64,000 nt of DNA from Acidobacteriota bacterium (GTDB lineage Bacteria > Acidobacteriota > Holophagae > Holophagales > Holophagaceae): assembly GCA_016213735.1 (NCBI GenBank), contig JACQZU010000003.1, forward strand, positions 62,001 through 126,000. Direction: 5' to 3'. The translations under genes were made by a program, and so were the position numbers. Numbering within the stretch: position 1 is the stretch's first letter; the number at the start of each line of letters is the position of its first letter. The notes beneath the pieces were generated by a model. It had not been told where the DNA came from. It saw nothing but the letters and a program-made list of their open reading frames with translations, and did no database searches. This document shows positions 6,235 through 64,000 of the stretch, in pieces.

Positions 6235-7188
6235 ATGCCCACCGCGCTCCTGGATTTCCCCCCCCCGGCCCTCTCCATCCTGCTCTTTCCCTTCGGCTTG
6301 ATCGTGGGTTCCTTCGCCAATGTCCTGATCCATCGCCTCCCGCTGGAGGCCGCAGAGGACCGGAACGTCGTCACCCGGCCCAGTCATTGCCCCAGTTGCC
6401 ACGCCCCCCTGCGGTGGCACCAGAACATCCCCCTCCTGAGCTGGCTCTGGCTGAGGGGCCGCTGCGCCGCCTGCGGCTGGCGGATCCCCTTCCGCTATCC
6501 CCTGGTGGAGGTCCTGGGGGGACTGGTCGCCGCGGGCAGCGTGTGGGTCTTCCCCTTCGGGACCTTGATCTGGTGGAAGGGGCTGCTCTGCGGGTGGGCA
6601 CTGCTGGTCCTGTTCTTCACCGATTTCACGGAGTACTTCCTGCCCGACGCGATCCAGTTCCCCCTCATGGCCCTGGGGATCCTCTTCGCCCTCCCCCAAC
6701 TCTTCTGGCCCGAGACCACGGTTAGGATCTGGACCACGGGCAATGGAATCCTGGTGGTGGACCGGTGGGCCAACGGCCTCCAGCCCGCGCCGCTCTGGTC
6801 CCTGCTCGGGGAGGCCGTGTCCTGGAAGACCAGCCTCATCGGGATCGTCGCCGGCTACGGCGGCCCCTGGATCTTCGAACGCCTCTACGTGCTCGTGCGG
6901 AACGCGATGGTCAAGGCCGCGGGGGGCCAGGCCATCGAGGCCGGAATGGGAATGGGGGACTTCAAGATGCTGGCCTGGCTGGGGGCCTTCTGGGGCTGGC
7001 AGGCCATGCTCTTCATCCTCTTCGGGGGGGCCGCCCTCATGGTGGCCTTCGCCCTTCCCCTGATCATCCTTCGCCGCGCCGGCGCCCAGACCCTGCTGCC
7101 CTTCGGCTGCACCCTGGCCCTGGCCACCTTCCCGGCGGTGTTCTACGGCCCCGCGATGTGGAGCTGGTACCTGGGGGCGATGCGCTAG
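6235..7188 (+). CDS. pilD: Type IV prepilin peptidase / N-methyltransferase (A24)
   Basis: A 317-aa integral membrane enzyme that cleaves prepilin leader peptides and methylates the new N-terminus of type IV pilins or type II secretion pseudopilins. The GSFANVLIHRLP start, the zinc-type CPSC...CAAC pairs (about residues 52-83) and the GMGMGDFKM block carrying a catalytic Asp are all present. The other Asp is in LFFTDFTEYFLPD. It is somewhat longer than the usual 250-290 aa, mainly through a segment around residues 160-200 between the two aspartates. It diverges from the PPIase gene and is not next to other pilus genes here. Confidence 0.95.
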   Translation: MPTALLDFPPPALSILLFPFGLIVGSFANVLIHRLPLEAAEDRNVVTRPSHCPSCHAPLRWHQNIPLLSWLWLRGRCAACGWRIPFRYPLVEVLGGLVAAGSVWVFPFGTLIWWKGLLCGWALLVLFFTDFTEYFLPDAIQFPLMALGILFALPQLFWPETTVRIWTTGNGILVVDRWANGLQPAPLWSLLGEAVSWKTSLIGIVAGYGGPWIFERLYVLVRNAMVKAAGGQAIEAGMGMGDFKMLAWLGAFWGWQAMLFILFGGAALMVAFALPLIILRRAGAQTLLPFGCTLALATFPAVFYGPAMWSWYLGAMR

Positions 7189-7195
7189 ACGGGAT

Positions 7196-7612
7196 TCAGG
7201 CCCCGTGATCCTGGGGCTGGCACACCTCCACCAGCACGCCCCCGGTCTCGGCGGGGTGGATGAAGGCGATGCGGTTGCCGTGGGCGCCCTTCCGCGGGGC
7301 CTGGTCGATCATGCGGACGCCCTTGGCCAGCAACTCCTTCACCGCGGCGTCCACGTCGTCGACCTCGAAGGCCAGGTGGTGGATGCCCGGGCCCCGCTTG
7401 GCGAGGAACTTGGCGATGGGTCCCTCGGGGTCCGTGCTCTCCAGGTACTCCAGGGTGCTCTCCCCGATGGGGAAGAAGGCCGTGCGCACTTTCTGGTCCA
7501 CCACCTCCTCGGTGTGGGTGGGCGCTATCCCGAAGAGGCGCTCCAGGTTGGCCAGGGCCTCGGACAGGCCCGGAGCCGCGATGCCGAGGTGGCTGATCTT
7601 GAGGAGTCGCAT
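7196..7612 (-). CDS. mce: Methylmalonyl-CoA epimerase
   Basis: A 138-aa VOC-fold protein that interconverts the R and S epimers of methylmalonyl-CoA in propionyl-CoA/succinyl-CoA metabolism. Family hallmarks include KISHLGIAAPGL at the N-terminus, RGPGIHHLAFEVDD mid-protein, and HPAETGGVLVEVCQ at the C-terminus, containing the metal-binding His and Glu residues. ATG 7612 follows GAGG at about seven bases. It converges with pilD with only seven bases between stops. No mutase gene is in view. Confidence 0.9.
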   Translation of the reverse strand: MRLLKISHLGIAAPGLSEALANLERLFGIAPTHTEEVVDQKVRTAFFPIGESTLEYLESTDPEGPIAKFLAKRGPGIHHLAFEVDDVDAAVKELLAKGVRMIDQAPRKGAHGNRIAFIHPAETGGVLVEVCQPQDHGA

Positions 7613-7637
7613 GGAGGACCTCGATGGAAAGCCCCTT

Positions 7638-7724
7638 TTAACCACGAAAGGCACCAAAAAGCACGAAAAGGGAAGGGCACCTACCGGGCAGGTTTTCGTG
7701 CCCTTCCATGCCTTTCGTGGTTAA
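7638..7724. repeat. Palindromic intergenic repeat element (ACCACGAAAGGCAC type)
   Basis: TTAACCACGAAAGGCA (7638-7653) is an exact inverted copy of TGCCTTTCGTGGTTAA (7709-7724). Inside, GGAAGGGCAC (7671-7680) pairs with GTGCCCTTCC (7699-7708), giving a two-part hairpin. It lies between divergently oriented mce and a methyltransferase gene. The CACGAAAG-type core resembles small palindromic repeats seen between genes in many bacteria; that comparison is from memory. Confidence 0.75.
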
Positions 7725-7743
7725 GTTTTTTCTTCGAGCCCCC

Positions 7744-8340
7744 ATGCACCTCCACGACCCCAGCTACTGGCAATCCATCTACGACGCCGAGGCCAGGCCG
7801 GGCTGGGACATGGATTCCCCCACCCCGCTGCTGCCGGAGCTGCTGGACCTGGCGGAGTCCCTGGGTCTGGCCCCGGGCCCCCGGGTAGCCGTTCCGGGTT
7901 GCGGCTTCGGGCACGACGCGGCGGAGCTGGCCCGCTGGGGCTTCGAGACGACGGGGGTGGACTTCGCCCCCGCCGCGATCCTGGGGGCCAGGGCGCGCTA
8001 CGGGGACGCCGTGGAATGGCGGGAGGAGGACTGGTTCCAGCTTGAGGCGCCGCCCTACGATGCGATTTTCGACCACACCTGCTTCGTGGCCATGGCGCCT
8101 GAACGGCGGGCGGAGTTCGTCGCCTGCAACGCCCGGCGTCTCCGCCCCGGCGGAATCTGGCTTGGGGCCTTCTTCCACACCGTGGCGAATCCGCCGGGTC
8201 CCCCCTTCGCCACCGAGCCGGAGGAACTCCGGCGCTTGGCTGAATCCCAATTCGAGGTGCGCCACCTGGGCCCCGCCTCCCGGAGCCATCCCCGACGGGC
8301 GGGCCGGGAATTCCTGATGGTGGGGGTCCGGAGGCCCTGA
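7744..8340 (+). CDS. SAM-dependent methyltransferase, thiopurine methyltransferase-like
   Basis: A 198-aa soluble class I methyltransferase. Motif I is VAVPGCGFGHDAAELA, motif II region is TTGVDFAPAAI, and the post-motif segment FDHTCFVAMAPERR matches the TPMT-like family, which methylates small thiols, halides or selenium/tellurium compounds. The opening HLHDPSYWQSIYDAEARPGWD is also typical. ATG 7744 is chosen over an upstream in-frame ATG lying inside the palindromic repeat. The substrate is unknown. Confidence 0.85.
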   Translation: MHLHDPSYWQSIYDAEARPGWDMDSPTPLLPELLDLAESLGLAPGPRVAVPGCGFGHDAAELARWGFETTGVDFAPAAILGARARYGDAVEWREEDWFQLEAPPYDAIFDHTCFVAMAPERRAEFVACNARRLRPGGIWLGAFFHTVANPPGPPFATEPEELRRLAESQFEVRHLGPASRSHPRRAGREFLMVGVRRP

Positions 8341-55702: not shown

Positions 55703-56713
55703 CTACCCGGGCAGGGGCAGGCCCAGGGCCTCCGCCGTCCGGCGGAAGGCCTCCGGCAGGGGGGCCTGGACCTCGATGCGCTGTCCCGAGCCCGGGTGGT
55801 CCAGGGCCAGGCGCCAGGCGTGCAGCATCGGGTGGGGCAGGGCCAGGGAGCGGCCCTCCGGGTCCAGCCAGGCGGCGGGGCCCCCGTAGAGCCCGTCCCC
55901 CAGGATGGGGGAGCCCAGGTGCCGGAGGTGCACGCGGATCTGGTGGGTGCGCCCCGTGAGGAGCTCGCATTCCACCAGGGCCACCCCGGCGCTGCGGGCC
56001 AGCACCCGGAAGCGCGTCTGGGCGGGCCTCCCGGCGGCGCTGACCGTCATCTTCATGCGCTCCGCCCGGTGGCGCGCCAGGGGCTCGTCCACCAGCAGGG
56101 AGCCGGCCTCGGGCAGGCGGCGCCCGTTCCGTGCCAGGGCAAGGTAGATCTTGGCCACCGAGCGGGCCTTGAACTGGGCCTGGAGCGAGGCCTGGGCCGC
56201 GGCGTCCTTGGCCAGGGCCAGGCAGCCCGTGGTGAAGCGGTCCAGGCGGTGGACCAGGCCCGGCCAGGGCAGGGGCGGGACCTCCTCGTCGCCGTCGTTG
56301 TCCTCGTCCACGGTCCTCCCCCCCGCCAGGGTGTCCCCGCCCAGGTCCACCGCCGGGGCCCGGAGCCGCCAGAGCAGGGCGTTGACCACGGTGCGGTCGG
56401 GGTGTCCCGGGCCCGGGTGCACCACCAGGTCCGGGGGCTTGTCCACGATCCACAGGCGGGCGTCCTCGAAGAGGGTGGGCAGGTCCAAGGCTTCGGGCTC
56501 CAGGTGGAGGGCCGGCGGCGCGGCCGGGGGCATCTCGGTCTCCACCAGGGCCCCCGCGCGCAGGCGCAGCCCCGGCTTGGCCGCGGGGACGCCGTCCACC
56601 CGGACGCGCCCCTCCCGGATCCAGGCTTCCCAGCGGGAACGGTTGACCCCGGGGAAGCGCTCGGTGAGGAAGCGGTCCAGCCGGCCCTGCTCCTGCTCGA
56701 TCCGGATCTCCAT
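55703..56713 (-). CDS. RluA-family 23S rRNA pseudouridine synthase
   Basis: A 336-aa pseudouridine synthase of the RluA/RluD type. An N-terminal S4-like domain (residues 1-55, LDRFLTERFPGVNRSRWEAWIREGRVRVDG) precedes the catalytic part with VHRLDRFTTGCLALAK, carrying the catalytic Asp (the typical HRLDxxTSG). RTHQIRVHLRHLGSPILGDGLYG is at the C-terminal side. An acidic insert (TVDEDNDGDEEVPP) sits just before the catalytic motif. Its start overlaps the lgt stop. The target rRNA position is unknown. Confidence 0.9.
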   Translation of the reverse strand: MEIRIEQEQGRLDRFLTERFPGVNRSRWEAWIREGRVRVDGVPAAKPGLRLRAGALVETEMPPAAPPALHLEPEALDLPTLFEDARLWIVDKPPDLVVHPGPGHPDRTVVNALLWRLRAPAVDLGGDTLAGGRTVDEDNDGDEEVPPLPWPGLVHRLDRFTTGCLALAKDAAAQASLQAQFKARSVAKIYLALARNGRRLPEAGSLLVDEPLARHRAERMKMTVSAAGRPAQTRFRVLARSAGVALVECELLTGRTHQIRVHLRHLGSPILGDGLYGGPAAWLDPEGRSLALPHPMLHAWRLALDHPGSGQRIEVQAPLPEAFRRTAEALGLPLPG

Positions 56714-57504
56714 CAGGCCTCGGCCGCCTTGCGCCGGAAGGCCCACACCAGCACCCCGATGCCGAAGAGGATGAAGAGGAAGCCCGAGAGGCGGCCCGTG
56801 GAGAGCCAGGCCTGGCCGAACCACACGCCCCGGTCGGGGTCCCCGCGCCAGGTCTCCATGATGGAGCGGCCGAGGCCCTCCAGGACGAAGTAGGCGCCGA
56901 ACACCGAGCCCTTGCGCGGGCGCTTCCGGTGCAGCAGCAACAGGATCCCGAAGACCGCCAGGTTCATCAGGGAGGTGTAGATCTGCACCGGGTGCAGCGC
57001 CTGGAACAGGGGGGTGCCGGAGAAGCGCAGGGCCGCGGGGTCCGTGAAGGTCACCGCCCAGGGGGCGTGGCACTCGGTGCCGTAGCAGCACCCGGCCGAG
57101 AAGCAGCCCAGGCGGCCGATGCCCTGGGCCAGGGCCAGGGGCGGCGTGAGGGCGTCCATGGTCTCCGCGTAGGGCAGGTGGTGCTTCTTCATGCGCCAGA
57201 AGAAGGCCGCCGCCCCCGCGACCACGCCCCCGTGCACCGCGCCCCCCGCCCGGAGGGTCGAGAGGCTGAAGGCCTGGGAGGCCGGGACGCCGTTGGCCAG
57301 GTCCACGATCACCATGAGCACCTTGGCGCCCACGATGCCCGCCAGGAGCACCGTGATGGCCAGGTCCGTCATGGCCTCCGCCGGAAGGCCGTCCCCCTTC
57401 CCCAGCCGCTTCGCCAGCGCCAGGGCCAGGAAGAAGCCCACCGCCAGCATGAGGCCGTAGGTGCCGACCTCGAAGGAGCCAAGGCTGAAAAGAACAGGAT
57501 GCAT
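56713..57504 (-). CDS. lgt: Prolipoprotein diacylglyceryl transferase
   Basis: A 263-aa integral membrane enzyme that transfers diacylglycerol to the Cys of lipobox-containing prelipoproteins, consistent with several lipoprotein genes in the window. The signature IGRLGCFSAGCCYGTECHAPWAV and the HPVQIYTS segment match the family, as does the first helix block FEVGTYGLMLAVGFF. Length is normal. It is followed by the pseudouridine synthase with a TGATG overlap. Confidence 0.93.
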   Translation of the reverse strand: MHPVLFSLGSFEVGTYGLMLAVGFFLALALAKRLGKGDGLPAEAMTDLAITVLLAGIVGAKVLMVIVDLANGVPASQAFSLSTLRAGGAVHGGVVAGAAAFFWRMKKHHLPYAETMDALTPPLALAQGIGRLGCFSAGCCYGTECHAPWAVTFTDPAALRFSGTPLFQALHPVQIYTSLMNLAVFGILLLLHRKRPRKGSVFGAYFVLEGLGRSIMETWRGDPDRGVWFGQAWLSTGRLSGFLFILFGIGVLVWAFRRKAAEA

Positions 57505-58614: not shown

Positions 58615-58663
58615 TTAGGCGTACTCGTACAGCGGTGCCAGTACGCCTAATTCAAAGTTAGGC
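58615..58663 (+). other. attI-like / first recombination site of the cassette array
   Basis: CCTAATTCAAAGTTAGGC (58646-58663) differs at two positions from the core of the class 1 integron attI1 (CCTAAAACAAAGTTAGGC, recalled). GTTAGGC (58657-58663) is a proper R box. Just upstream, TTAGGCGTACT (58615-58625) and AGTACGCCTAA (58640-58650) form an exact 11-bp inverted repeat with a 14-nt loop. It could also be an atypical attC. Confidence 0.55.
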
Positions 58664-58670
58664 AGACAGC

Positions 58671-59123
58671 ATGCAGAAAGATCTGAAAGTAAACCCTACC
58701 CCAAGCGTTCTCCAATTCGCCGTTAATCCACGCGCCCAGGCATTTTACCTGCGGTTTTGGTTTATCGCTGATCTTCTGATGGCTATTGCAGTTGTTACTT
58801 TTTGGGTTACGATTTTGGTTTGGGTGGGCCGGTTTTTTGGGGTCCTTCGCCCCCTCGAGCCAAATCTTATTCGTACTTGTTTAGGGGTTGGCGGAGTTCT
58901 TTTGGCAGGAATCGCCGCCTACGTTTTGCGTTTATGGTTGCGGCGTGCATACGGCATTGCAGAAGTAATATTTGCGCTGGTGGTCGCTTGGGGAATAATG
59001 AGCGGTAATAATCAGTTTAGTAGATTTGATATTTTAATTGGTTTTGCAACAACTGTATATTTGATTGTCCGTGGTCTTGATAATTGGTACCAGGGGGTCG
59101 AGGACCGTGCTTCAAAAAATTGA
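58671..59123 (+). CDS. Cassette 1: membrane protein, function unknown
   Basis: A 150-aa AT-richer cassette gene. Three to four hydrophobic segments lie near residues 28-57, 65-90, 95-108 and 119-132; the N-terminus and a polar tail (NWYQGVEDRASKN) flank them. ATG 58671 is eight bases after the R box, and no strong SD is seen. No family is recognised. The composition differs from the host genes, fitting cassette origin. Confidence 0.72.
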   Translation: MQKDLKVNPTPSVLQFAVNPRAQAFYLRFWFIADLLMAIAVVTFWVTILVWVGRFFGVLRPLEPNLIRTCLGVGGVLLAGIAAYVLRLWLRRAYGIAEVIFALVVAWGIMSGNNQFSRFDILIGFATTVYLIVRGLDNWYQGVEDRASKN

Positions 59124-59155
59124 TTTACAATGTCAAAGTTTTTGTCTAATCACCC

Positions 59156-59281
59156 GCCTAACCACGCGCTCAACTCGGACCCAGCCGCTACTGTCTTCCA
59201 ATCTCCTATGAACTCTTCAGATTTCTCGTCCCCAACAATCTTCCGGCATACGGCTGGGCCGGTTAGCTTCAATCGTTAGGC
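59156..59281 (+). repeat. attC site 1
   Basis: R'' is GCCTAAC (59156-59162) and R' is GTTAGGC (59275-59281). Inner arms ACCCAGCCGC and CGGCTGGGCCGG form the imperfect hairpin stem. Length 126 bp. Confidence 0.85.
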
Positions 59282-59309
59282 GGCCCCTTTGTATCCAACT
59301 GGAGATTGA

Positions 59310-59696
59310 ATGCGCATCATCTTATTCGCTTCATTCCTTCTTCTCCTAAATTGTTCTCGACCAACTTTGGAATCTCGGACATCCAAAGTCATCGATGCAG
59401 CGACGGATGAAGTCCTGGAAGTTGAATTGAGTGATGTGCGTTTCAAGTATCAACCTGCTCCTGACCCGTATCCTGAAGAAGCCAAAGCCGCCGGAGTTTC
59501 CGGCGCGGTTATTGTATTAGTAACCGTCGATGCAGAAGGTAAGGTACTGTCTTCTTCCGCAATTGATGGCCCTAAGCTACTTTTTAATGTTGCAGAAAAA
59601 TGGTGGTCGAAATATATTTTTCATCCATATATTAAAAATGGAGTCCCACATAAATTTCGATTTAAAACCGTCACGGTTTTCAGGCTAAGAAAGTAA
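59310..59696 (+). CDS. Cassette 2: lipoprotein with TonB C-terminal-like domain
   Basis: A 128-aa protein. A hydrophobic signal ending LLLNC is a lipobox, so lipidation at Cys15 is likely. The C-terminal ~90 residues (YPEEAKAAGVSGAVIVLVTVDAEGKVLSSSAIDGPKLLFN ... FRFKTVTVFRLRK) match the TonB C-terminal fold (energy-transducer/TonB family). The N-terminal TM anchor of true TonB is replaced by a lipoprotein signal. GGAG precedes ATG 59310. Function unknown. Confidence 0.78.
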   Translation: MRIILFASFLLLLNCSRPTLESRTSKVIDAATDEVLEVELSDVRFKYQPAPDPYPEEAKAAGVSGAVIVLVTVDAEGKVLSSSAIDGPKLLFNVAEKWWSKYIFHPYIKNGVPHKFRFKTVTVFRLRK

Positions 59697-59717
59697 TCCA
59701 TATGGAATTACTCTCCT

Positions 59718-59841
59718 GCCTAACCAGGCGTTCAACCCGGACCCAGCCGCGAGTATCTTCCGTGCTCTCTCCTGCCCACGCTTCCTCGTCTCTGTTCGTC
59801 GCCCGGCTTGCGGCTGGGCCGGTTAACTTCCATCGTTAGGC
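59718..59841 (+). repeat. attC site 2
   Basis: R'' is GCCTAAC (59718-59724), R' is GTTAGGC (59835-59841), with the shared arms GACCCAGCCGC and CGGCTGGGCCGGTTAAC. Length 124 bp. Confidence 0.87.
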
Positions 59842-59849
59842 GAACGCAT

Positions 59850-60293
59850 ATGGGCATAGGTTGGAGCGCTCACAGAAACAACGGTTGGCAAGGCCAGTTC
59901 GCTAGGATTGAGCGTTGGCACACACGTGTCCACTCTGCTGCAGGGTCTGCAAACCCAGATCTAGAAGATTTCGTTTACGCATACTTCCAGAACTGCTACC
60001 ACCTTCGTGATTGGATACCGGCGACTTCTTCAATCACAGTCCAAGATGTTGAAGAGCTGTTTCAAAATTCTCGTGAACTTCAACTTTGTCGCGATATTTG
60101 CAACGGTACCAAACATCTCAACATTTCTCGGCCAAGCGTCGATGCTGATTTTTCTATTGGGCGCGAGTACGTACCAAGTGAACCATCAAGGGCTCGACTT
60201 TTCGTTATTGCCGATGGCAAATACGACCTACTTGATCTCGCAGATACATGCCTTTCCACATGGCGCACTTTCCTTTCTTCTCGGGGCGCCTAA
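59850..60293 (+). CDS. Cassette 3: hypothetical protein
   Basis: A 147-aa soluble protein beginning MGIGWSAHRNNGWQGQFARI, eight bases after the R box, so its transcript leader is nearly absent. A helical middle contains DICNGTKHLNIS, a motif style seen in several uncharacterised proteins and weakly HEPN-like. Its stop codon lies inside the R'' box of the next attC. No family is recognised with confidence. Confidence 0.68.
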   Translation: MGIGWSAHRNNGWQGQFARIERWHTRVHSAAGSANPDLEDFVYAYFQNCYHLRDWIPATSSITVQDVEELFQNSRELQLCRDICNGTKHLNISRPSVDADFSIGREYVPSEPSRARLFVIADGKYDLLDLADTCLSTWRTFLSSRGA

Positions 60294-60411
60294 CCAGGCG
60301 TTCAACTCGGACCCAGCCGCTACGATCTACCATGCTCCTTCTTGTTCAATCTTTCCCGTCTCTGTTCCGCGTTCGGCTTGCGGCTGGGCCGGTTAACTCC
60401 AATCGTTAGAC
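60288..60411 (+). repeat. attC site 3
   Basis: R'' is GCCTAAC (60288-60294), overlapping the stop of cassette 3. R' is GTTAGAC (60405-60411). Arms as in the other sites. Length 124 bp. Confidence 0.85.
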
Positions 60412-60433: not shown

Positions 60434-61324
60434 ATGCCCAAAGAGCAAAAAATCGAAATCGGTGCCTTAAACATAACTATTCATCCGCACCCTTCTCCAG
60501 AAATCTATATTGATCTTTTCAAATACGCTTTTTCACTTAAACACCAGGTTCAATTGTGGGGAGAAATCCATGGAATTTTAAGATCAGTCTACGCACCAGA
60601 CAAAAAAGAATCATTCGAATTGTTGACTGGTGAAATTACTCGATTTATCAAGCTTAAAACAGATAATCCGTGGTTTGATCTTGATAAATTCGATGAAGCC
60701 GACGAAGAGGAATGTCAGAAAATACGAATACCAGAGAATCTAAGACCAAACTACTTCCACATAGATTACAAATTATGGCCACAAAAGCATATTATCTTTT
60801 TTGAAACATACCATGAAACACCCAAATTATCGCCAGCAATGGCACTTAGGTTTTTTAGAAGGTTATTTAGTCACGAAAAAATAATAAAAAAATTTGGAAT
60901 CGTTGAAACAACAATTATACCGCAAAAAGAAATAGTTGAATCAATTCTCGATAGTGATGGCCTAAAGGAATTGCATATCCTTATCACCCGTCCAAACGCT
61001 GACGACCTTGCCGATGCCGAGCGTGAATTATTAGATGATTTGAACAATCAACATTCAAAAGAATTACGGATTAGCCAGAAAGCTCAAAGTGGTAAAACAA
61101 TTCAACCAAGCCAACGAACCAAAATTCTTGGCAGGATAGCGTCAAAAAATGGAGTCCTTTCGGCCAAGGTCAGAAATGATATCGGTGGTGTCTCTCCAAT
61201 TTCAACAGTTGATCATCCAGAAACAAAGGGCGTCAAATATAATCCGGCAACAGAAACCAGCACGGAGGCATTCCGTAGAGCCATTAATCTGATGTGCCCA
61301 CCACCTATGGAAACCAATCAATGA
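60434..61324 (+). CDS. Cassette 4a: DUF4747-like protein
   Basis: A 296-aa soluble protein. The features (FELLTGEITRFIKLKTDNPWFDLDKF, then IRIPENLRPNYFHIDYKLWPQKHIIFFETYHETPKLSPAMALRFFRRLF, then ITRPNADDLADAE) match my memory of DUF4747 (a family without known function). AGAGG precedes ATG 60434. Its last codon overlaps the next gene's ATG (ATGA), so the two are translationally coupled. The composition is very low in G+C compared with the host. A role in phage defence is an inference from integron context and gene pairing. Confidence 0.65.
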   Translation: MPKEQKIEIGALNITIHPHPSPEIYIDLFKYAFSLKHQVQLWGEIHGILRSVYAPDKKESFELLTGEITRFIKLKTDNPWFDLDKFDEADEEECQKIRIPENLRPNYFHIDYKLWPQKHIIFFETYHETPKLSPAMALRFFRRLFSHEKIIKKFGIVETTIIPQKEIVESILDSDGLKELHILITRPNADDLADAERELLDDLNNQHSKELRISQKAQSGKTIQPSQRTKILGRIASKNGVLSAKVRNDIGGVSPISTVDHPETKGVKYNPATETSTEAFRRAINLMCPPPMETNQ

Positions 61325-61986
61325 TTACCCTTTTTTCGTCCTATCCGGATGTCTGGGATATATTCAAACGCTACTGGAATTCCTATGGTGGCGTAAGATC
61401 GTTTGCCAAATCTCCATATTTTCACATTTCGCTATTGATCACATCCATCTCGTTCTCTATTTGGACTAAATCTGGTTGGTGGGATCTGCCCACCTCAATA
61501 TTGCCCAATTTGATAGGATTTTCTTTAGGTGGATATGCAGTTTGGCTTTCTTTTGGAAATGACAAATTCAGGGCGTGGCTATGCAAATCAAGAAAGTCGA
61601 ATGTGACGGCATTTATGCAAGTCAACTCGGCCTTTGTACACTTTATCATTATTCAAATTCTTGCACTAAGCTATGCGATTGTGGCCAAGTCACTGCCATT
61701 GTTTCATGCCATTTATTTACTCAATGGCCGACATGATCCAAGCGCTCTCAACATTTGGACTCACAAAGCCATATTTATCTCCGTACGTTTTGGCTGGTTT
61801 ATCGGGGTGCTTTTATTTGTGTACGCAGTGCTCTCTGGTTTGGCCGCAACGATAGCTGTGTTTAGATTTTCTTATTGGCTTGAGATCTTTATCAAGAATG
61901 GCGCACCCAAAAAGCCCAAGAAGTCTAAGCATGTAAAAAAATTCAAATGCATTTCTAGGCGAACTATCGCTTTAGGTGTGGTCTAA
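61321..61986 (+). CDS. Cassette 4b: membrane protein coupled to the DUF4747-like gene
   Basis: A 221-aa membrane protein. Helices lie near residues 33-49, 55-72, 100-125 and 155-182, followed by a strongly basic tail (NGAPKKPKKSKHVKKFKC). ATG 61321 overlaps the stop of the preceding gene. Its stop overlaps the R'' box of attC 4. No family is recognised. A membrane effector paired with a cytoplasmic sensor-like partner is a plausible organisation. Confidence 0.7.
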   Translation: MITLFSSYPDVWDIFKRYWNSYGGVRSFAKSPYFHISLLITSISFSIWTKSGWWDLPTSILPNLIGFSLGGYAVWLSFGNDKFRAWLCKSRKSNVTAFMQVNSAFVHFIIIQILALSYAIVAKSLPLFHAIYLLNGRHDPSALNIWTHKAIFISVRFGWFIGVLLFVYAVLSGLAATIAVFRFSYWLEIFIKNGAPKKPKKSKHVKKFKCISRRTIALGVV

Positions 61987-62104
61987 CCTTGCGCTCAACT
62001 CGGGCCCCGCTTGCGTTGCCTTCCGTTCTCTCTCAACCACTCGCTTCCTCGGCTTCGTTCATCGCCTCAGCGCAGGCGGGGCCGGTTAGCTTCCTTCGTT
62101 AGGC
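61981..62104 (+). repeat. attC site 4
   Basis: R'' is GTCTAAC (61981-61987), R' is GTTAGGC (62098-62104). The inner arm is GGGCCCCGC / GCGGGGCCGG, a variant of the other sites with compensating changes. Length 124 bp. Confidence 0.83.
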
Positions 62105-62532: not shown

Positions 62533-62562
62533 CAATAATAGTATATTAATAGCCTCTGAAGC

Positions 62563-62687
62563 CCCCAACCCGGCGCTCAACTCGGACCCAGCCGCTACTG
62601 TCTTCCAATCTCCCATGAACTCTTCGGATTCCTCGTCCCACACAATCCTCCGGCCTGCGGCTGGGCCGGTTAGTTTTCATCCTAGGT
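62563..62687 (+). repeat. attC site 5 with degenerate end boxes
   Basis: The R'' position reads CCCCAAC (62563-62569) instead of RYYYAAC, and R' reads CCTAGGT (62681-62687) instead of GTTRRRY. The inner arms GACCCAGCCGC and GCGGCTGGGCCGGTTAG are intact. Length 125 bp. It is probably unable to recombine. Confidence 0.72.
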
Positions 62688-63006: not shown

Positions 63007-63008
63007 CT

Positions 63009-63141
63009 GCCCGTCCCGTCGTTCAACTCTGGCCCAGCCACCTGTGTCTTTCGTCTACCTCTTTGCGCTCCGGCCTGAAATAGTGTCGGCCTCCTCCGTC
63101 GCTTCGCTGGTGGGTGGGGCGGTTAAATTCAACCGTTAACC
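63009..63141 (+). repeat. attC site 6, degenerate, end of array
   Basis: The R'' position reads GCCCGTC and R' reads GTTAACC (63135-63141), each with departures from consensus. The arms keep only part of the shared sequence (GGCCCAGCCACC ... GTGGGTGGGGCGGTTAA). Length 133 bp. Host-like GC-rich DNA follows. Confidence 0.65.
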
Positions 63142-63835: not shown

Positions 63836-63906
63836 GGGGGGCGGCGCCCCGCCATGGAGGACCCAGGGACCCCGCGGCCGCGCGGCCACGGGGGATCGGC
63901 CCCCGG

Positions 63907-64000
63907 TTTCGGAATCGGAATCGGACTCGGGTTCGGAATCGGAATCGGATTCGGGTTCGGGTTCGGAACCTGATGCCGACACCGATGCCGATGCCGACTC
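63907..64000. repeat. NNTCGG hexanucleotide tandem array, runs to window edge
   Basis: From 63907 units of six such as TTTCGG, AATCGG, AATCGG, ACTCGG, GTTCGG repeat ten times, then change to ATGCCG/ACACCG units to the end of the window. The period matches the hexamer blocks at 57601 and 58302, although the unit differs. Confidence 0.82.

Follow-up and report, generated by a model that had tools for sequence, protein, structure and literature searches.

Near the head of a gene cassette array in a Holophagaceae genome lies a short gene whose product joins a signal segment to a domain of the TonB C-terminal type (TonB_C). The genome is a 3.59 Mb assembly (G000) from a relative of Geothrix that falls outside the latter's genus code, and the stretch analyzed here, 64,000 nucleotides that we call the window, corresponds to C23:62001-126000. 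Repeats of about 120 bases stand on both sides of the gene, which has a G+C of 0.42 against 0.68 for the window. The features of the locus are collected in table 1.

Table 1. The TonB_C cassette and its surroundings, in positions of the window.
Feature	Position	Strand	Basis
ORF just outside the array, which we take to resemble lgt, lipoprotein diacylglyceryl transferase	56713-57504	-	
attI-like core CTAATTCAAAGTTAGGC, head of the array	58647-58663	+	pattern scan
First cassette ORF, 150 aa, hydrophobic, without Pfam or NCBIfam match	58671-59123	+	
attC 5' of the TonB_C cassette	59155-59280	+	R1, 117.9 bits
TonB_C gene cassette	59276-59835	+	sequence and flanking attC matches, G^TT crossover points
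GGAG, resembling a ribosome-binding site, 5 bases 5' of the ATG	59301-59304	+	sequence
TonB_C ORF, 128 aa, ATG start	59310-59696	+	open-frame list, sequence
Signal segment MRIILFASFLLLLN, residues 1-14	59310-59351	+	translation; hydropathy
Codon of Cys15, the putative site of lipidation; +2 is Ser	59352-59354	+	signal-end Cys in 10 of 11 family members
Tether	59355-59465	+	Cys15 to Tyr-Pro motif (Y54), 39 residues
TonB_C domain, residues 53-126	59466-59687	+	PF03544, model, PDB matches
attC of the TonB_C cassette, 3' side	59717-59840	+	R1, 128.7 bits
attC of the next cassette	60287-60410	+	R1
DUF4747 protein in another cassette	60434-61321	+	PF15931, E 1.7e-59
Further attC	61980-62103, 62562-62687, 63008-63136	+	R1
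Run of CGGAAT/CGGGTT-like six-base units directly past the array	63904-63987		

The TonB_C Gene as an Integron Cassette

The attC sites were located with a covariance model (R1) built from 41 aligned sites of the window array and related arrays. It recognizes six attC sites in the window, all in the same orientation, the first three of which, including both that flank the gene, belong to its training set. The bottom strand of each flanking site folds with complementary paired ends; the fold of the 3' site is better than all 200 shuffles (z -2.87), and that of the 5' site does not stand above them (z -1.06; 29 of 200 as good). The bounds of the cassette follow the G^TT crossover rule, which we take to hold for attC sites. 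Since an attI-like core heads the array and attC sites flank the gene, the TonB_C gene is the second cassette. A short gene between attC sites of one orientation, in a genome with an integrase, is thus what we find. The gene is a cassette, as the earlier note had held, and we take it to be mobile and to belong to an integron of the chromosome.

A single integron integrase gene (intI) exceeds the model cut-off in this genome (C3:31205-32146; TIGR02249, 453.7 bits against 265), on a contig other than that of the window. The attI-like core CTAATTCAAAGTTAGG also lies beside intI on C3 (L084, about 2424) and on C27 (L085, about 2033); with two extra bases it was also seen in L180 (about 8007). Arrays with no integrase of their own seem to retain an attI-like site. 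Across the genome R1 yields 50 attC matches at E ≤0.001, spread over eight contigs and scoring 34 bits or more. Because arrays stand at the ends of contigs C3, C6, C7, C19, and C27, the assembly probably breaks there and further cassettes are likely. No Rfam family reached its gathering score in the window, and PADLOC-DB 2023 returned no match for the TonB_C protein or four other ORFs of the array.

Fold and Signal End of the Encoded Protein

The presence of a TonB_C-like domain, proposed in the earlier note, is borne out by Pfam (PF03544, E 8.2e-9, 36.2 bits, cut-off 24.6), and TIGR01352 of NCBIfam is just reached (27.2 bits, cut-off 27.1). A PDB search by sequence gave marginal TonB matches (best 2k9k, E 0.00089). 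Structure prediction, which the note had suggested as a check, gave a confident model: AlphaFold2 with 53 aligned sequences reached a mean pLDDT of 86.4. In blocks of ten residues the values are 52-55 up to residue 30, where the tether forms the low-confidence part, and 89-99 beyond it. The best Foldseek matches in the PDB are TonB domains (6fip, 2.9e-5; 6i97, 7.8e-5). In structure comparison the model aligns with FoxA-bound TonB at Z 10.0 (6i97_D, rmsd 1.8 over 86 residues) and with BtuB-bound TonB at Z 8.9 (2gsk). Among the entries listed, nine have Z of at least 8; all are TonB-type domains, FusB included, and they comprise TonB from complexes with FoxA (6i97), TbpA (9dc4), and BtuB (2gsk). 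Against a viral structure library the best E was only 0.31. On the strength of the model, the protein is predicted to have the TonB C-terminal fold. Residues 32-37 form a strand ahead of the core; as a V-D-F-S-Q-I-like stretch is common in the Holophagaceae TonB_C consensus, this strand is not specific to the cassette. At one alignment column at least 90% of the 53 sequences share a Trp, and the window protein has Tyr there.

The cassette proteins share with the C-terminal domain of E. coli and Pseudomonas TonB (PF03544) a common fold, the Tyr-Pro motif, and the domain boundary. In contrast to these TonB proteins they have a short tether in place of the TonB-type membrane spanner and proline-rich spacer, a Cys that closes the signal segment in 10 of 11 members, and carriage by attC cassettes. 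The usual inner-membrane anchor is indeed absent from the window protein, as the note had stated: neither the anchor nor the periplasm-spanning spacer that together mark a TonB energy transducer is found. The TonB of the host itself (C13:5318-5614) has a TonB_C domain with a similar start, DFSQI...QPPAPPYP, but its frame of 276 residues includes, by eye, a segment that spans the membrane and a long spacer rich in proline.

The earlier note had further read LLLNC, residues 11-15, as a lipobox. The Cys and the hydrophobic segment before it (mean hydropathy 2.59 over the 12 residues preceding Cys15) are present, but the box is atypical, with Leu at -2 and Asn at -1 both outside the consensus [LV][ASTVI][GAS]C given in PMC8689077. 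In the family described below, a Cys follows a hydrophobic run at residue 15-19 in 10 of 11 members, the signal ends being LLNC (window), MISC, SLGC, TMCC, GLGC, IVAC, LVGC, AIGC, LDGC, and TFGC. LVGC alone fits the consensus fully and IVAC nearly; the window box misses -2 and -1, and the rest depart from it at -3, -2, or both. Gly, Ala, or Ser stands at -1 in eight of the ten. The remaining member, G212, ends its signal in SSLC-AEE and looks like an ordinary cleaved signal of type I. Among 71 attC-bounded cassette ORFs, a list that leaves out the members G133, G410, and G182 and whose eight TonB_C entries have attC on both sides, the Cys flag falls on 8/8 TonB_C proteins against 12/63 others (1.2e-5), the flag being a loose rule (Cys after a hydrophobic run) that also marks the type I-like G212. 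The support for lipidation thus comes from a Cys that the family conserves, and not from the box of the window protein itself. Judged from sequence, the cassette TonB_C family is likely to be lipidated, whereas for the window protein itself the irregular box leaves us less sure, with moderate doubt.

Recurrence and Origin in Holophagaceae

The note had also proposed a search for other lipidated TonB_C proteins in integrons, and this search was productive. We searched 77 Holophagaceae genomes and took short-frame loci from among the matches listed. At least 11 TonB_C cassette proteins occur in at least 10 of these genomes, under three genus codes (g1, g2, g3): the window protein, a second one on contig C6 of the same genome, and those of G133 (Geothrix terrae SG184, L121), G390, G410, G406, G053, G106, G182, G212, and G236. 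Nine of the ten additional proteins carry the signal-end Cys. All 11 pass the PF03544 cut-off. The ten others score 41.8-58.9 bits and have 27-39% sequence identity with the window protein. Each gene adjoins at least one attC. That of G410 has attC downstream only, its upstream side being cut off by the contig end; an attI-like site stands upstream of the G133 gene; and for G182 R1 finds the upstream attC only, with a degenerate-looking site 3' of the gene. The C6 gene (C6:147454-147846, minus strand; 131 residues, signal end MISC) has attC on both sides.

A further lipoprotein-like cassette of this genome, on C7 (L086:2675-3061, minus strand; signal end LIAC), has a sub-threshold TonB_C match (E 0.028); it may be a more diverged member or a chance match, and was left out of the 11. 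Lipobox-like N-termini were also seen in other cassettes (L082, reverse complement, between attC 6472-7093 and 7218-7834; L176:1288-1702; L170:5237-6018), and lipoprotein cassettes may be common in Holophagaceae arrays.

Association with attC distinguishes the short proteins. Among 69 sources scanned with R1, attC was confined to integron arrays and cassette loci. The scanned loci hold 82 distinct TonB_C domains, and attC lies within 700 bases of 12, namely the 11 and the sub-threshold relative; R1 found none in 58 other TonB_C loci, nor in 17 more (some genes being present twice). Beside TonB_C frames of at least 230 aa there was none in 55, and for 53 of these the sequence continues at least 300 bases downstream. 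Fifteen short frames stand without attC. Nine run off the end of their contig or locus, and one of these (L172, from G284) resembles the cassette proteins and has no downstream attC; five are short and complete and belong to other lineages (L159 of Ignavibacteriae, L191-L193, and L195); and the single exception is L123, a Holophagaceae protein of 129 aa with neither a visible signal nor attC. Complete short Holophagaceae TonB_C proteins thus adjoin attC in 11/12 cases against 0/55 for longer frames (Fisher 9e-12, a value to be read knowing that the groups were drawn after the data were seen, that rows share ancestry, and that cassette sites helped to train R1).

No relatives of the window protein were found in plasmids, phages, or viral contigs, nor in genome contigs searched with its single sequence. 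A genome-contig search with alignment A1 gave 43 loci, with attC matches only in L121, the Geothrix terrae cassette. We also searched 396 Acidobacteriota genomes with an 11-row profile (E ≤1e-10, mostly ten candidates scored per genome), a survey that may miss weaker cases beyond Holophagaceae. Among the matches listed, those from outside Holophagaceae are mainly longer TonB_C frames; two shorter ones, from G112 (147 aa, L192) and G187 (173 aa, L195), have no attC by R1, which was trained on Holophagaceae sites, those of the cassette loci included, and may not recognize attC of other lineages. A third, from G248 (185 aa), was left out.

In a tree of 53 domains the cassette proteins fall in several places, with seven label changes, of which starred branches force at least two. 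Nevertheless, the AU test does not reject a single clade of cassette proteins (p 0.183), and the tree, with its few columns and many long branches, is compatible with one recruitment or with several. The C6 cassette lies in the neighborhood of the host TonB (85/73 support, drawn open). The cassettes would have been recruited from the Holophagaceae's own TonB or from other TonB_C proteins.

Possible Roles and Known Systems

To envisage what such a protein might do, the distance between Cys and domain is informative. From Cys to Tyr-Pro motif the ten Cys proteins have 30-59 residues, whereas the host TonB has about 132 between its spanner and that motif. The residue at +2 is Ser, Ala, Thr, Val, Asn, or Lys, never Asp. 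In E. coli, lipoproteins without Asp at +2 are sorted to the outer membrane, so by this rule the outer membrane is favored. Given the short tether, a domain anchored in the inner membrane should not reach the outer one, while outer-membrane anchoring would put it at the receptors, for which nine Plug-domain matches over cut-off in G000 are candidates.

We propose that the cassette encodes a TonB C-terminal domain without its motor, exported and most likely lipid-anchored. The lipoprotein would go to the outer membrane, where the domain would lie directly beneath TonB-dependent receptors and, in the manner of TonB itself, pair with the TonB boxes that these expose. Having no link to ExbB-ExbD, it could not pull and would act as a decoy, holding receptors idle or rationing their access to TonB. 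Production of TonB's periplasmic domain in vivo is said to have inhibited transport through FecA and FhuA in a 2001 study by Howard and colleagues, cited in PMC9769762. Phage T5 provides another precedent in its lipoprotein Llp, which acts on FhuA from the periplasmic side and jams it (PMC9586334). If the decoy reading is right, the cassette proteins would resemble Llp and the Cor exclusion lipoproteins as small periplasmic lipoproteins that disable a TonB-dependent receptor; as Llp binds the plug and not the TonB box, according to the same paper, we draw a functional likeness and claim no homology. The role sketched in the earlier note, namely TonB-box binding with interference in uptake or in phage and colicin entry, would fit the fold, the short tether, and these precedents. 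An outer-membrane decoy that binds TonB boxes and passes on no energy is a tentative reading, to which we give somewhat less than an even chance; binding, localization, and protection from phages or bacteriocins are the conjectural parts of it. Most speculative is its selected value: receptors might be closed to phages, bacteriocins, or toxic cargo while the cassette stands near the array promoter, and the cost relieved when it is shuffled away.

Fold and tether are also compatible with a helper rather than a brake, in which the anchored domain docks on receptors or TonB and keeps them primed or clustered, with more uptake of scarce nutrients. A TonB_C stretch can belong to a receptor, since positions 8-89 of the 792 in the NCBIfam model of the MxcH receptor (NF038079), its N-terminal TonB_C, match the cassette proteins, although these have neither barrel nor plug and score 16-36 bits against 925. 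Without a motor link, however, such a domain could not energize a receptor by itself, and the single in vivo precedent for a free TonB domain that we found is said to be inhibitory; we consider a helper improbable. The protein might instead be exported and unlipidated, with a Sec signal that is cleaved off or an anchor that is retained, as a soluble or inner-membrane periplasmic TonB domain. The irregular LLNC, the type I-like signal of G212, and a parallel in other Acidobacteriota families all point that way: L191, L192, L193, and L195 are short free-standing TonB_C proteins like those of the cassettes, and the signals of L191, L193, and L195 look type I by eye. That of L192, LVSC-AGLAAAA, is ambiguous and could mark a lipoprotein outside an integron. 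In contrast to the cassettes, these four loci show no attC with R1, a model that suits Holophagaceae sites. Against an unlipidated protein speak the position of the Cys, kept in a segment that otherwise varies, the small residues at -1, and the length of the hydrophobic run, which gives way to a polar tether after about 12 residues and is short for an anchor. This reading, too, appears unlikely to us.

TonB_C domains also occur in Holophagaceae sensor proteins, of which the cassette protein, rather than acting on receptors, might be a ligand or regulator. Fusions to M56 (BlaR1-type) peptidases were seen in L015 (by Pfam), L019, L022, and L187 (by eye), and kinase-like proteins ending in TonB_C in L200, L201, and L203 of G000 (by eye). 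The M56 fusion L015, the kinase-like proteins, and, weakly, the position of G212 beside a tree group that holds L015 and L019 would agree with a sensor ligand, but few splits of the tree are resolved, and we regard such a role as very improbable. It is also distinctly unlikely that the gene is silent cargo with no present function. Cassettes of massive integron arrays are mostly non-expressed, according to PMC11023631; the window gene, by contrast, is the second cassette after an attI-like site, and the frame, the fold residues, and the Cys have been kept despite the divergence among members.

The TonB_C domain, exported TonB_C proteins that stand alone, and cassettes with a signal are already known; PMC8618304 puts the share of cassettes that encode signal peptides at 10-30%. 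The LIC10042 TonB-like protein (NF047760) is likewise a short free-standing TonB_C, but the G406 protein scores only 18.9 bits with its model, against 100. The words TonB and lipoprotein are absent from the main texts of three integron papers (PMC7370490, PMC8618304, PMC12444791), and no published lipoprotein TonB_C cassette was found among the top matches, few of them subscription papers, in the literature on integrons, lipidated TonB, and Geothrix or Holophaga. We put forward, as a doubtful extension of the decoy reading, that Holophagaceae integrons stock diversified lipoprotein decoy TonBs which jam receptors on demand, a reversible immunity to phages and bacteriocins that is carried on cassettes and acts through the TonB box; it would be the cell's equivalent of the Llp and Cor lipoproteins of phages. 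Recurrence in three genera together with the divergent sequences makes the question directly testable. If the decoy reading is true, integrons would supply inhibitors, dominant and ready for use, against a core uptake system; in the papers searched we found no description of such a role for a cassette. Such a protein would be a natural, tunable blocker of the TonB box, and cassette shuffling would be tied to receptor-mediated attack or to the choice of nutrients.
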